DNA from: Pirellulales bacterium
GTDB lineage: Bacteria; Planctomycetota; Planctomycetia; Pirellulales; Lacipirellulaceae
DNA length: 64,000 bases
NCBI GenBank assembly: GCA_019636345.1
Contig: JAHBXQ010000008.1
Location: 124,001 to 188,000 of the forward strand
Direction of reading: 5' to 3'
Below, piece by piece: positions 35,144 to 39,275 of this stretch; position 1 is the stretch's first letter, and the number at the start of each line of letters is the position of its first letter. A program made the translations under genes and the position numbers. Under the pieces are notes generated by a model. It was given only the letters and a program-made list of their open reading frames with translations. It did no database searches and was not told where the DNA came from.

Positions 35144-35785
35144 ATGGCCGACCCCGCACTTCAGGACTTCGCCGACTCGCCGTGCGCGGCGTGGCTCGAC
35201 GGTCCGGCGACCGCGACGGACCTGCGACTTCGCGTCGAGTTCCGCCACGTCGGCGACCGGTATGCCCATCGCGTGGTCGTCGTCGCCAGCGACGGACAGA
35301 TTGCACCGGCGTTGGAGTCGCTCGAAGGCGCCGACGGCGATCCCTGGCCCGAGAGCCCGGCCCTGCAGGCGCTCAACCGGGATCAACTGGTGCGGGCCGC
35401 CGACGCGGGCCAAGCGACCGTGGCGGCCCTGGTGGGGATGAGCGGCGCCTGCCACTGGTCGCTGGGGATCGAGCCGAGGAGCGAACCTGCCGGTCCGGGG
35501 CTGCTGTTCGACGCCGCCTGCCGGATCAAGCGACTTCCCCCCGCGTTGGGAAGCCGTTACTGCCTCGCTCCCGGCGCCGAGAGCTGCGCAGGACTCGGCG
35601 GCGAGGTCGTCGTCACAGCGGCCGACGGCCGGTGGCGACTGCGACTCGCCCCGGTCGCGGACGAGCCGCTTGACTGCACGCTCGATGGCGCGCAACTCCG
35701 CATCCGGCGGCCCGTCGATCCCGCGACGGGGCTGCCGACGACGCTTCGCTGGCGGTACGCGGTGCAGTTGCTCGCGCCGGAGTGA
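35144..35785 (+). CDS. Hypothetical protein in the ridA unit
   Basis: A 213-aa soluble protein I do not recognise. No signal peptide or membrane helix. It is rich in beta-type strands (DLRLRVEFRHVGDRYAHRVV; GRWRLRLAPVADEPLDCTL). Its start lies six bp after the ridA stop, so the two are almost certainly cotranscribed. The N-terminus ADPALQDFADSPCAAWLDGP has a planctomycete-style hypothetical look but gives no function. Confidence 0.7.
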   Translation: MADPALQDFADSPCAAWLDGPATATDLRLRVEFRHVGDRYAHRVVVVASDGQIAPALESLEGADGDPWPESPALQALNRDQLVRAADAGQATVAALVGMSGACHWSLGIEPRSEPAGPGLLFDAACRIKRLPPALGSRYCLAPGAESCAGLGGEVVVTAADGRWRLRLAPVADEPLDCTLDGAQLRIRRPVDPATGLPTTLRWRYAVQLLAPE

Positions 35786-36662: not shown

Positions 36663-36904
36663 CGCACGAGTTGCCCCTGAGAAATTCTGACAAGAGAGGC
36701 CGCAGCGCCCCGTGATCGCCGGGGCTCGAGCGGGCCGTTACGGCGGTCGATTATGGGCCGGCGCACTGGGCAGGGCAACCAGTTTCTGCGGGCCAGGGTC
36801 ATTGCCAGCCGGGGCCCGTTGGGCGAAAATTCGGGGCCCGGCGGGCAATTCGCCCCGCGGGTCTCAGCCGCTTGTTTCCCAACTCCGCCCCCCGCGTCGC
36901 GCCC

Positions 36905-37651
36905 ATGTTCGCCGAGAATATCGAGCAGATCAAACAGGACTGGACCGACAAGTACGTCGTCGTCGATGCGACTCTGCCCGAGTTGGCCCGGTTTCGCGAG
37001 TTGGTCGGCCAAGTGAAGACCGTCAACATGAGCGGTCGGGCGCTGGTCGAGTTCATGGACTACCACCTGAACGTCGGCTGGTACGACATCGATCGGGCGT
37101 ACTTGAAGCAGGTCCCCAAGCCCGAACCGAGGCCGGCCGAGGCCAAGGCGAAACCGGCGGCCAAGCCGGCGGCCGAGAAGAAGCCCGCGGCCGATGCGGG
37201 CGCGAAGAAGCTCTCGCCGTTGGAGTTGGCCCGGCAACAAGGCGCCGGCGGCGCCGCGAAGCCTGCGGGGGCCAAGACCTCGACGGCCGACATTTTGGCC
37301 GCCGCGCGCGGCGGCGCCGCGCCGGCCAGGAGCGACAAGCCCGCAGCCAAACCGGCCGAAGCAAAGCCGGCCCCGGCAGCGAGCGGCGCCCCGGCCAAGG
37401 TCGACCGGGCGAAGATGTCGGTCGCCGACATGTTGGCGATGGCGCGCGGAGACAAACCGGGCGGCGCCCCCCCGGCCAGCAAACCGGCCGAGCCGGTCGC
37501 CCCCCCGCAGGAGGAAGCCAAGGCCGCCGCCGAAACCGTCGCTGCGGCGCCCGCCCCTTCGACCGAGCCCGCCCAGCCGCAGCGCGTCGACAAGTCGGGA
37601 ATGGACGTCGACCAGATGCTCGCTTACTGCCGGCAAACCGACGGACGATAG
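36905..37651 (+). CDS. Small SH3-like domain with a disordered tail of repeated helical motifs
   Basis: A 248-aa protein. Residues 1-70 form a compact domain ([50 protein letters not shown]) reminiscent of SH3/KOW-like barrels. The rest is a Lys/Ala/Pro/Glu-rich, presumably disordered tail carrying four copies of a short amphipathic motif: [12 protein letters not shown] (102-113), [13 protein letters not shown] (124-136), [13 protein letters not shown] (170-182) and [13 protein letters not shown] (232-244). The consensus is roughly K-x-S-x-x-D-(M/I)-L-A-x-A-R. I do not know its function; the architecture suggests multivalent binding to one partner. Start ATG 36905. Confidence 0.72.
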
Positions 37652-37703: not shown

Positions 37704-39275
37704 TCAGCGTTTTCCGATCCCGTCGCGATCCTCGTCCAGGCGGTCGCGTACCCGTGCGGCTTGCGTGCGGATCGCGCGAAGCTCTTCGGCGCTCTTTCGC
37801 CGGAGGTTGTTCATCTGAAATCCCATTCGCGGGTTCGCGGCGAGCTTGCTCTCATGCCGCGCCAGAAAGTCCCAGTACAGGGTGGTCAGCGGACACGCGT
37901 CGGGGCCGGTCGCGCTGGCCGGGTTGAATCGACACCTCTGGCAGTAGTCGCTCATCCGCTGGACGTACTTGCCGGTCGCGGCGTACGGCTTGCTCGCCAT
38001 GATCCCGCCGTCGGCATACTGGCTCATTCCCAGCGTGTTGGGCAGCTCGACCCACTCGACCGCGTCGACGAACACAGCCAGATACCACTGGTGAACCTGC
38101 CGGGGATCGATCCCGGCCAGAAGCGCGTAGAGCCCTGTGACCATCAACCGCTGGATGTGGTGAGCGTAGCCGAGCCGCAACGTCTGACCGATCGCCTGCC
38201 GCAGGCAGTTCATTTCCGTTTGGCCGGTCCAGTAGAACCGCGGCAAGTCGCGGTCGGCCCCCAGTTCGTTGAGCTCCAGGTACTCGGGCATGAACCGCCA
38301 GTAGACTCCCCGCACATACTCGCGCCAGCCAAGGATCTGACGAACAAACCCTTCTGCAGCTGACAACGGGGCATCGCCTCGTCGATAAGCCGCCTCGGCC
38401 GCGGCGACCGCGGCGCGGGGATCAAGAAGCTTCAGGTTCAACGCCGCACTAAGCCGCGCGTGATAGAGCCACGGCTCGTCGGTCCACATCGCGTCTTGGC
38501 ACTTGCCGAACATCGGCAGGCGATGCTCGATAAAATCGTCGAGCGCCGCGGTCGCTTGTTCGGGGGTCACAGGCCAATCAAACGCGGCGAGATCTCCAGG
38601 ATGGTCGGCGAATCGCTCGCGGACCAACTGCAGCACGTCGGCCGTGACAACGTCGGGGGCGAACGACCGCGGCGGCTCAATTGCGCCCGGTCCGGTCCGG
38701 CCGAACGAACCGCGGTTCTGGTCGTCGTAGTTCCAGGCGCCGCCGACCGGCTCGCCCTCGTCAAGCAGCACTGCGTGCTTCCTGCGAAGCTCTCGGTAGA
38801 AGTACTCCTGTCGGAGTCGCTTCCGCGAGTCGGCGTGGGCGTTGAATTCGTCGAGCGTCGCCAAGAAGTGCTCGTCGGGGCGAATCTCGAGCGGGAGTCC
38901 GGCCTTCCGGGCGACCGCCTCGAGCGCCGCACGGACGCGGTGCTCGCCCGGCTCGACGACGACCAGCCGCTCAGGCCGCAGTCGCTCGATCGCGGCGGCC
39001 AGTTCCGCGGCGAGCGTGCCGCGGTTGTCGCGGTCATCGAGCTGTGCGTAATGAACCGTAAAGCCTTGCGCCCGCAGCCAGTCGCGGTAATGTCGCATCG
39101 CGGCCAGAAAGATCGCGATTCGCGCCTGGTGCGACCAAACGTGGGTCGCCTCGCCGGCGACCTCGGCCATCCACACCGCGTCGCACCGCGGGTCGAAGTC
39201 GCGCAGCACCGCCGACCGGCGGTCAAGCTGATCCCCCAGAACCAGGCAAAGGCGGCGAACGACGGGCGCACTCAT
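37704..39275 (-). CDS. FeS-containing bacterial (6-4)-type photolyase/cryptochrome
   Basis: A 523-aa cryptochrome/photolyase of the deoxyribodipyrimidine photolyase-related (FeS-BCP, PhrB/CryB-like) branch, which repairs UV lesions or senses light using FAD. The four [4Fe-4S] cysteines are Cys357, Cys445, Cys448 and Cys461; their spacing (88, 3, 13) equals that reported for Agrobacterium PhrB. The N-terminal alpha/beta antenna domain begins LCLVLGDQLDRRS, and the FAD domain contains LGWREYVRGVYW and WVELPNTLGMSQYADGG. Start ATG 39275. It is downstream of a desaturase on the same strand. Confidence 0.93.
   Translation of the reverse strand: MSAPVVRRLCLVLGDQLDRRSAVLRDFDPRCDAVWMAEVAGEATHVWSHQARIAIFLAAMRHYRDWLRAQGFTVHYAQLDDRDNRGTLAAELAAAIERLRPERLVVVEPGEHRVRAALEAVARKAGLPLEIRPDEHFLATLDEFNAHADSRKRLRQEYFYRELRRKHAVLLDEGEPVGGAWNYDDQNRGSFGRTGPGAIEPPRSFAPDVVTADVLQLVRERFADHPGDLAAFDWPVTPEQATAALDDFIEHRLPMFGKCQDAMWTDEPWLYHARLSAALNLKLLDPRAAVAAAEAAYRRGDAPLSAAEGFVRQILGWREYVRGVYWRFMPEYLELNELGADRDLPRFYWTGQTEMNCLRQAIGQTLRLGYAHHIQRLMVTGLYALLAGIDPRQVHQWYLAVFVDAVEWVELPNTLGMSQYADGGIMASKPYAATGKYVQRMSDYCQRCRFNPASATGPDACPLTTLYWDFLARHESKLAANPRMGFQMNNLRRKSAEELRAIRTQAARVRDRLDEDRDGIGKR

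Follow-up and report, generated by a model that had tools for sequence, protein, structure and literature searches.

An amphipathic motif shared by an SH3-like protein of Pirellulales and the N-terminal tail of the Rieske subunit: a candidate accessory factor of the Rieske/cytochrome b complex

A gene for a small SH3-like protein with a motif-bearing tail was examined in a 64,000-nucleotide stretch of a Pirellulales genome (contig JAHBXQ010000008.1, positions 124,001 to 188,000), referred to here as the window (G000:C8:124001-188000, in a 5.2-Mb genome). In related genomes the same motif was found almost exclusively on one other protein, the Rieske subunit encoded beside cytochrome b, and the two genes strongly co-occur. 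The SH3-like protein may therefore act in the cytoplasm as a soluble accessory factor to the Rieske/cytochrome b complex in a main planctomycete respiratory chain, a reading to which we assign a probability of about 0.5. The open reading frame at 36905-37651 (+) runs in translation from an ATG at 36905 to a stop at 37651 and encodes 248 amino acids. A TTG start at 36872 would lengthen the frame, but the orthologue alignment begins at the ATG. The features of the gene are as follows.

36905..37651 (+): coding sequence of the 248-residue SH3-like protein with motif tail, from translation; barrel present in 84 of the 97 genomes; without a Pfam or NCBIfam family
36905..37129 (+): predicted SH3-like barrel with N-terminal helix, residues 1-75; AlphaFold2 predicted local distance difference test (pLDDT) above 90 over most of it; nearest folds tied
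37208..37246 (+): motif copy 1, residues 102-114, 13-residue short SPLE variant, from sequence; predicted helix 105-113; mean column identity 0.58 (linkers 0.41)
37271..37312 (+): motif copy 2, residues 123-136, 14-residue main type; profile match 30.9 bits; predicted helix 127-135; identity 0.67
37409..37453 (+): motif copy 3, residues 169-183, 15-residue main type; profile match 31.2 bits; predicted helix 173-180; identity 0.76
37589..37642 (+): motif copy 4, residues 229-246, 18-residue C-terminal variant; predicted helix 235-246, pLDDT about 90; identity 0.59

The bit scores of copies 2 and 3 come from a motif profile that itself includes both copies. The protein begins with the predicted barrel (residues 1-75), and the remainder is a tail rich in Lys, Ala and Pro. 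This layout, with four motifs at residues 102, 124, 170 and 232, had been proposed in the initial annotation and was confirmed by both sequence and structure prediction. The barrel was detected in 84 of the 97 genomes searched, the window's own included, and no Pfam or NCBIfam family could be assigned to the protein when both collections were searched, the latter also with three orthologues. Among the best 80 of 131 relatives, named records placed the gene in Lacipirellula, Bythopirellula, Adhaeretor, Botrimarina and Blastopirellula, the last including a contig of Blastopirellula marina DSM 3645 (L263).

Motif copies in the tail of the SH3-like protein

The four copies, which start at residues 102, 124, 170 and 232, are of three types. 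Copies 2 and 3 have the main form K-x-S-T/V-A-D/E-I/M-L-A-A-A-R-G, copy 4 is a C-terminal variant ending in ...A-Y/W-C-R-x-x-D, and copy 1 is a shorter variant (SPLE-M/L-AR-x-QG; SPLEMARQQG in the window protein) that is the predominant type in genus g13 and family f21. The initial annotation had described the four motifs as evenly conserved. All four are indeed retained above the level of the linkers, but the copies are not alike. Aligning 36 sequences gave a mean column identity of 0.77 across the SH3-like domain, compared to 0.65 across the motifs and 0.41 across the linkers; thus the motifs, and not the linkers, were the more constant part of the tail among orthologues.

The tails of 81 of the 84 barrel-bearing genes were read using the pattern [ST]xx[DEQ]hhAx[ARLC][RK], with an optional extra residue. 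The pattern was composed after the family had been seen, and gave 202 motif copies in the 81 tails compared to 0.52 expected from 200 shuffles per tail. A chance origin of the tail motifs is excluded. When 178 distinct copies were tallied, 42 were of the C-terminal type with Cys preceding Arg, and positions outside the pattern were also biased, with Lys at -2 in 108 of 178 and Met or Leu at -1 in 87 of 178. Hydrophobic residues occupy +4 and +5, and often -1, while +6 to +8 are mostly Ala. A Ser or Thr at the start of a helix with Asp or Glu three residues on forms the capping box of self-standing helices, and hydrophobic residues at -1 and +4 form the hydrophobic staple. In the AlphaFold2 model the only helices of the tail, at 105-113, 127-135, 173-180 and 235-246, are the four motifs. 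Conservation and prediction together support well the earlier description of a disordered tail carrying multivalent short linear motifs, and it is plausible that the motifs bind one partner repeatedly. Tails with up to eight short-variant copies by the pattern (SPLEQLRQQG, SPIEMIRAQQ) were also seen, at L035, L052 and L061 in genus g13 and at L328 and L329 in genus g62.

The Rieske subunit and the distribution of the two genes

A motif profile was built from 47 main-type copies and searched against 12 whole genomes, where matches at E ≤ 0.005 were confined to the SH3-like gene and to a Rieske gene, which was matched in 8 of the 12 genomes. The scan was extended to 97 genomes, and the best 150 matches listed comprised, as judged by position, 103 in SH3-like genes and 43 in Rieske genes, and in addition four contig-end fragments, of which three were Rieske tails and one an SH3-like tail. 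The search of relatives' genomes that the initial annotation had proposed thus located the same motif on the N-terminal tail of the Rieske protein.

In the window's own genome the motif-bearing Rieske gene lies at G000:C1:124299-125330 (L114:6299-7330 +), with cytochrome b next to it (L114:7436-8212 +). The encoded protein has three motif-like stretches in its N-terminal tail, contains CTHLGC and CPCHGSGF boxes and matches the Pfam Rieske family with 33.9 bits (cut-off 20.3); the NCBIfam Rieske models also match, with scores under their cut-offs. The next two genes match cytochrome b families, PF00033 with 134.4 bits (cut-off 27.2) and PF00032 with 22.7 bits (cut-off 20.7). From the Rieske gene the run thus continues with cytochrome b, a cytochrome b C-terminal protein and a protein of 1551 amino acids, and further on with cytochrome oxidase subunits II, called by eye, and I. 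The 1551-residue protein (L378:199-4854 +, genome G000:C1) gave several cytochrome c matches and contains a PDZ domain.

The N-terminal tail of these Rieske proteins is approximately 190 residues long, precedes a twin-arginine membrane anchor and carries from one to about five motif copies. Seventy Rieske genes were read; four from family f17 were counted apart and one cut by a contig end (L130) was excluded, leaving 65 tails, all of which carry at least one copy. The total of 119 copies compares to 0.19 expected from shuffles, and in 64 of the 65 a copy lies within the first 30 residues. Of 66 Rieske proteins, 63 have a twin-arginine ahead of the membrane stretch, L133, L150 and L156 being without it by the pattern used. 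In Rieske proteins that depend on twin-arginine translocation, this signal places the N-terminal tail in the cytoplasm. Because the twin-arginine precedes the membrane stretch, the motif-bearing Rieske tail is probably cytoplasmic. Family f17 contains both proteins in 4 of 4 genomes, and the main motif is absent from both.

Co-occurrence was examined in the 76 genomes that are at least 90% complete, the window's own included, with a limit of E ≤ 1e-20 for the Rieske gene. Both genes were present in 57, the SH3-like gene only in 12, the Rieske gene only in none and neither in 7 (Fisher p 2e-5, uncorrected for kinship). Over all 97 genomes the corresponding numbers were 68, 16, 3 and 10, and a profile recheck of the 13 scored without the SH3-like gene gave only short partial matches, with a best E of 0.016. 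The neighbouring gene at 35144 of the window was used as a control, and its linkage was much weaker, with p 0.053 to the Rieske gene (17 genomes having Rieske without the control) and p 0.41 to the SH3-like gene. A phylum scan matched 19 of 294 genomes, all within one class, where family f21 was found. This family repeated the distribution, with 11 genomes having both genes, 2 the SH3-like gene only, none the Rieske gene only and 7 neither (p 5e-4, Rieske E ≤ 1e-20, uncorrected by tree); two of the seven hold a distant Rieske protein without the tail. Genomes G378, G383, G260 and G311 were scored as lacking the Rieske gene, as they hold only a distant Rieske protein of 35-41% identity (E about 1e-16 to 1e-15) without a motif tail. 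If each genus is one lineage, at least six losses of the SH3-like gene must have occurred, in G024 (g7), G030 (g13), g3/g5, g46, g53 and g56/g58, and each of them falls in a lineage without a Rieske gene.

Barrel fold, proposed role and alternative explanations

The barrel alone was predicted by AlphaFold2 with a mean pLDDT of 86. Its structural neighbours were NdhS, the FTR variable chain, PsaE, PetP and the KOW domains of Spt5 and NusG, tied at Z scores of 6 to 8; Foldseek gave nothing under E 0.001. Searching the domain profile against the sequences of the PDB returned five weak, unrelated matches with a best E of 0.21, and PetP, NdhS, PsaE and FTR were absent from them. Among 38 family members, weak Pfam matches were obtained to KOW (7 of 38, best E 0.0056) and to SH3_15, the Mind bomb SH3 repeat (4 of 38, best E 2.7e-4); PetP was not among the Pfam families listed for them. 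The fold comparison therefore identifies a predicted SH3-like barrel, and not membership of a family.

A candidate parallel is PetP, an SH3-type protein bound on the cytoplasmic side of cytochrome b6f (PMC9342900). PetP (PDB 2N5U, 7R0W) is a small SH3-type barrel, and the predicted planctomycete barrel is linked to a Rieske/cytochrome b complex by co-occurrence and the shared motif. The structural match is weak, with Foldseek E values of 0.13 and 0.58 (7r0w_V), and Z scores of 7.0 and 6.5 to 2n5u at a root-mean-square deviation (rmsd) of 3.0 and 3.4 over 66 aligned residues. At 64 and 79 residues, the PetP chains in the solved structures are without a motif tail, and PetP has been described from cyanobacteria and red algae. 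The SH3-like protein is thus comparable to PetP in predicted fold, and we make no claim that it is a PetP. NdhS (6HUM, 6KHI, 3C4S) was among the best neighbours, 6hum_S giving Z 8.2 and 7.5 over 55 aligned residues with an rmsd of 1.5 and 1.6. NdhS, PsaE and the FTR variable chain are SH3 modules of electron-transport proteins; however they lack a helix-motif tail, and in the domain-only search their Z scores were below 8. Over both structural searches the NdhS rows, at 7.4-8.2, were tied with Spt5 KOW. The second motif protein has, like the Rieske proteins of bc1 and b6f complexes, a Rieske domain beside cytochrome b, but differs from them in its motif-bearing N-terminal tail of approximately 190 residues.

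The arrangement of a short motif on both a soluble and a membrane protein, seen here in the SH3-like protein and the Rieske tail, has a counterpart in chloroplasts, where Tic62 and TROL carry a common membrane recruitment motif for ferredoxin-NADP reductase (PMC7108012). There the soluble protein has several copies and the membrane protein one. The plant proteins and their motif, whose receptor is established, are unrelated to the bacterial ones; the likeness is confined to the arrangement, and no homology is implied.

That the motif otherwise occurs almost only on the Rieske tail suggests that the SH3-like protein could be an unrecognised partner of this enzyme, and a physical association of the two is proposed. 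A common partner would receive both tails by multivalent docking; alternatively, the two proteins would dock on each other. Docking would keep the barrel at the cytoplasmic face of the complex, in a position comparable to that of PetP on the cyanobacterial cytochrome b6f, and there the barrel might tune electron flow or assembly. The link to the Rieske/cytochrome b complex is the firmer part of this proposal, while the identity of the receptor is a guess; docking of both tails on a third, common receptor is put forward only tentatively, as a possibility well short of even odds.

Several observations weigh against an accessory factor of the Rieske complex. The Rieske and SH3-like genes are on different contigs in the window's genome. 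Twelve of the 76 genomes that are at least 90% complete keep the SH3-like gene without Rieske, and the same 12 have no matching cytochrome b, at most relatives with 28-43% identity; both g62 genomes of family f21 likewise keep the gene without Rieske. One such Rieske-less genome, G056, carries six near-perfect motif copies. The three genomes with Rieske only are each less than 90% complete (G025 58%, G033 68%, G038 87%). Two of the four f17 SH3-like tails retain a stretch resembling the short variant (SALEVAR, SALELAR), and in family f21 the SH3-like tails have mainly the SPLE variant and the Rieske tails mainly another 10-residue type; therefore the motif is not always identical on the two proteins. 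As the SH3-like gene persists without the complex, the complex cannot be the protein's sole working partner. In the 12 Rieske-less genomes profile matches at E < 0.01 were confined to the SH3-like gene, with no other motif protein. The Rieske-less genomes of g13 and g62, among them those with the short-variant-rich tails (L035, L052, L061, L328, L329), have motifs predominantly of the short type. In genomes without Rieske the motif either serves a purpose independent of the complex, perhaps through a common receptor, or the genes are remnants being lost. In family f1 the barrel scores were lower in 8 genomes without Rieske than in 14 with it (Mann-Whitney p 9e-4, confounded by kinship), which fits relaxed constraint.

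The barrel itself could be the receptor of the motif, in which case the protein would polymerise through its tail into a network and the Rieske tail would be a client drawing the complex in. A single protein would then account for the joint occurrence of motif and barrel, and for the persistence of the motif in genomes lacking the complex. Where the motif is present the barrel shows good conservation (mean column identity 71% over 63 orthologues), and the f17 barrels, from which the main motif is absent, are only 38-43% identical to that of the window (four sequences). Against this, recognisable similarity of the barrel is retained in f21, where the tail motif is of another type, and the AlphaFold2 monomer output (predicted template modelling score 0.35), read without coordinates or predicted aligned error, gave no sign of docking; the high confidence of the C-terminal motif in this model is not taken as such a sign. 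We regard this explanation as doubtful. Receptor-free association of the motif helices with each other, homotypic or between the SH3-like and Rieske tails in a zipper-like manner, would agree with the presence of the same motif, mostly in several copies, on both proteins and with the hydrophobic and Ala-rich positions described above. Helices of ten residues are however short for stable zippers, the copies are separated by long linkers and the f21 tails differ in motif type, making such pairing quite improbable.

Two further explanations leave the respiratory complex out. Lys-rich low-complexity tails are common in GC-rich bacteria, and the tail could be a general membrane- or nucleic-acid-binding one, the likeness to the Rieske tail being convergent and the link to respiration incidental; the weak KOW and SH3_15 matches of the barrel and the Spt5/NusG KOW domains among its structural neighbours point in that direction. 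Yet the likeness holds position by position (S/T-x-x-D/E-h-h-A-x-A-R), beyond composition as judged by the shuffles, and all of the best 150 motif matches listed fall in the two proteins, which leaves a general tail with a low probability, slightly under that of the zipper. The co-occurrence could also reflect shared ancestry only, both genes having been lost in the same few clades for unrelated causes. The Rieske-less genomes do cluster (g3, g5, g7, g11, g13, f15, g56, g58, g62) and the tests were not tree-corrected, but the six or more losses of the SH3-like gene in Rieske-less lineages, and the lack of any genome at least 90% complete with Rieske but without the SH3-like gene, make this the least probable of the explanations considered.

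The motif helix could finally be a portable docking tag for redox proteins of planctomycetes, the SH3-like protein scaffolding a multivalent hub that recruits soluble reductases to the cytoplasmic face of the Rieske/cytochrome b-oxidase chain. This extension is unlikely on present evidence, although it fits one fusion protein of family f21, because the motif there sits on the linker of another redox protein:

L371:1382-4267, genome G118:C1:2738881-2741766 (+): nitrite/sulfite reductase - Rieske - FNR-type fusion, 962 amino acids, with an exact motif before the FNR domain

The exact 12-residue motif is carried by the linker that joins the Rieske domain to the FNR-type domain, and the neighbouring genes encode an MFS transporter, a 4Fe-4S/DmsC protein and a molybdopterin oxidoreductase. 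The fusion was the sole match at E ≤ 0.05 in 20 genomes besides Rieske genes and one match in G074. The latter (G074:C152, E 0.009), a single match in a large open reading frame, was treated as chance.

The initial annotation knew of no described system for the motif, with which literature searches and the absence of a Pfam or NCBIfam family agree. In a search outside which most subscription papers lay, no publication was found with the string ADILAAAR or with Pirellulales and Rieske together, and queries combining Rieske with Planctomycetes or Rhodopirellula, or Planctomycetes with short linear motifs, returned no paper whose listed subject is this system. SH3 accessory proteins and shared recruitment motifs are already known; the present pair and motif were not found described. 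If an accessory role at the Rieske complex is correct, one accessory subunit of planctomycete respiratory complexes has gone unrecognised, and their Rieske subunit has a long tail that bears tags. A bc-type complex would then have an SH3-like partner in the cytoplasm of organisms other than phototrophs, and bacteria would have a multivalent helical motif that occurs both on a soluble protein and on a core membrane enzyme. An unannotated protein present in most of the sampled relatives would also gain a first testable function.

Neighbouring genes and further observations

Window stretches were sought in 80 loci, up to 5 kb to each side of the SH3-like gene, at E ≤ 1e-10. Conserved neighbours, which the initial annotation had also proposed to look for, were found in that three genes recur, prfB in 32 loci, the gene at 35144 in 27 and a 3-keto-disaccharide hydrolase in 19, but they point to no function. 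Eight other window stretches had no match in the 80 loci at this limit. The gene at 35144-35785 (+) encodes 213 residues, lies upstream of the SH3-like gene in 26 of the 80 loci and is present in 58 of the 97 genomes; its product had no Pfam or NCBIfam match. Convergent with the SH3-like gene, at 37704-39275 (-), is a deoxyribodipyrimidine photolyase-related protein (DPRP, 256.8 bits), which is not a recurrent neighbour.

Within its own genome the full protein gave a second match, L002, at E 0.005. This was taken as spurious, since the stretch holds ordinary genes and no related gene was seen there. In viral contigs 73 stretches matched a pattern, and no relative was seen. A second SH3-like paralogue was observed in genome G362 (L330 and L376:2903-4438 +, G362:C1:5532462). 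It carries many SPLD-type repeats and a C-terminal helix-hairpin-helix domain, which matched HHH_5 at E 7.5e-5 with a score under the curated cut-off.
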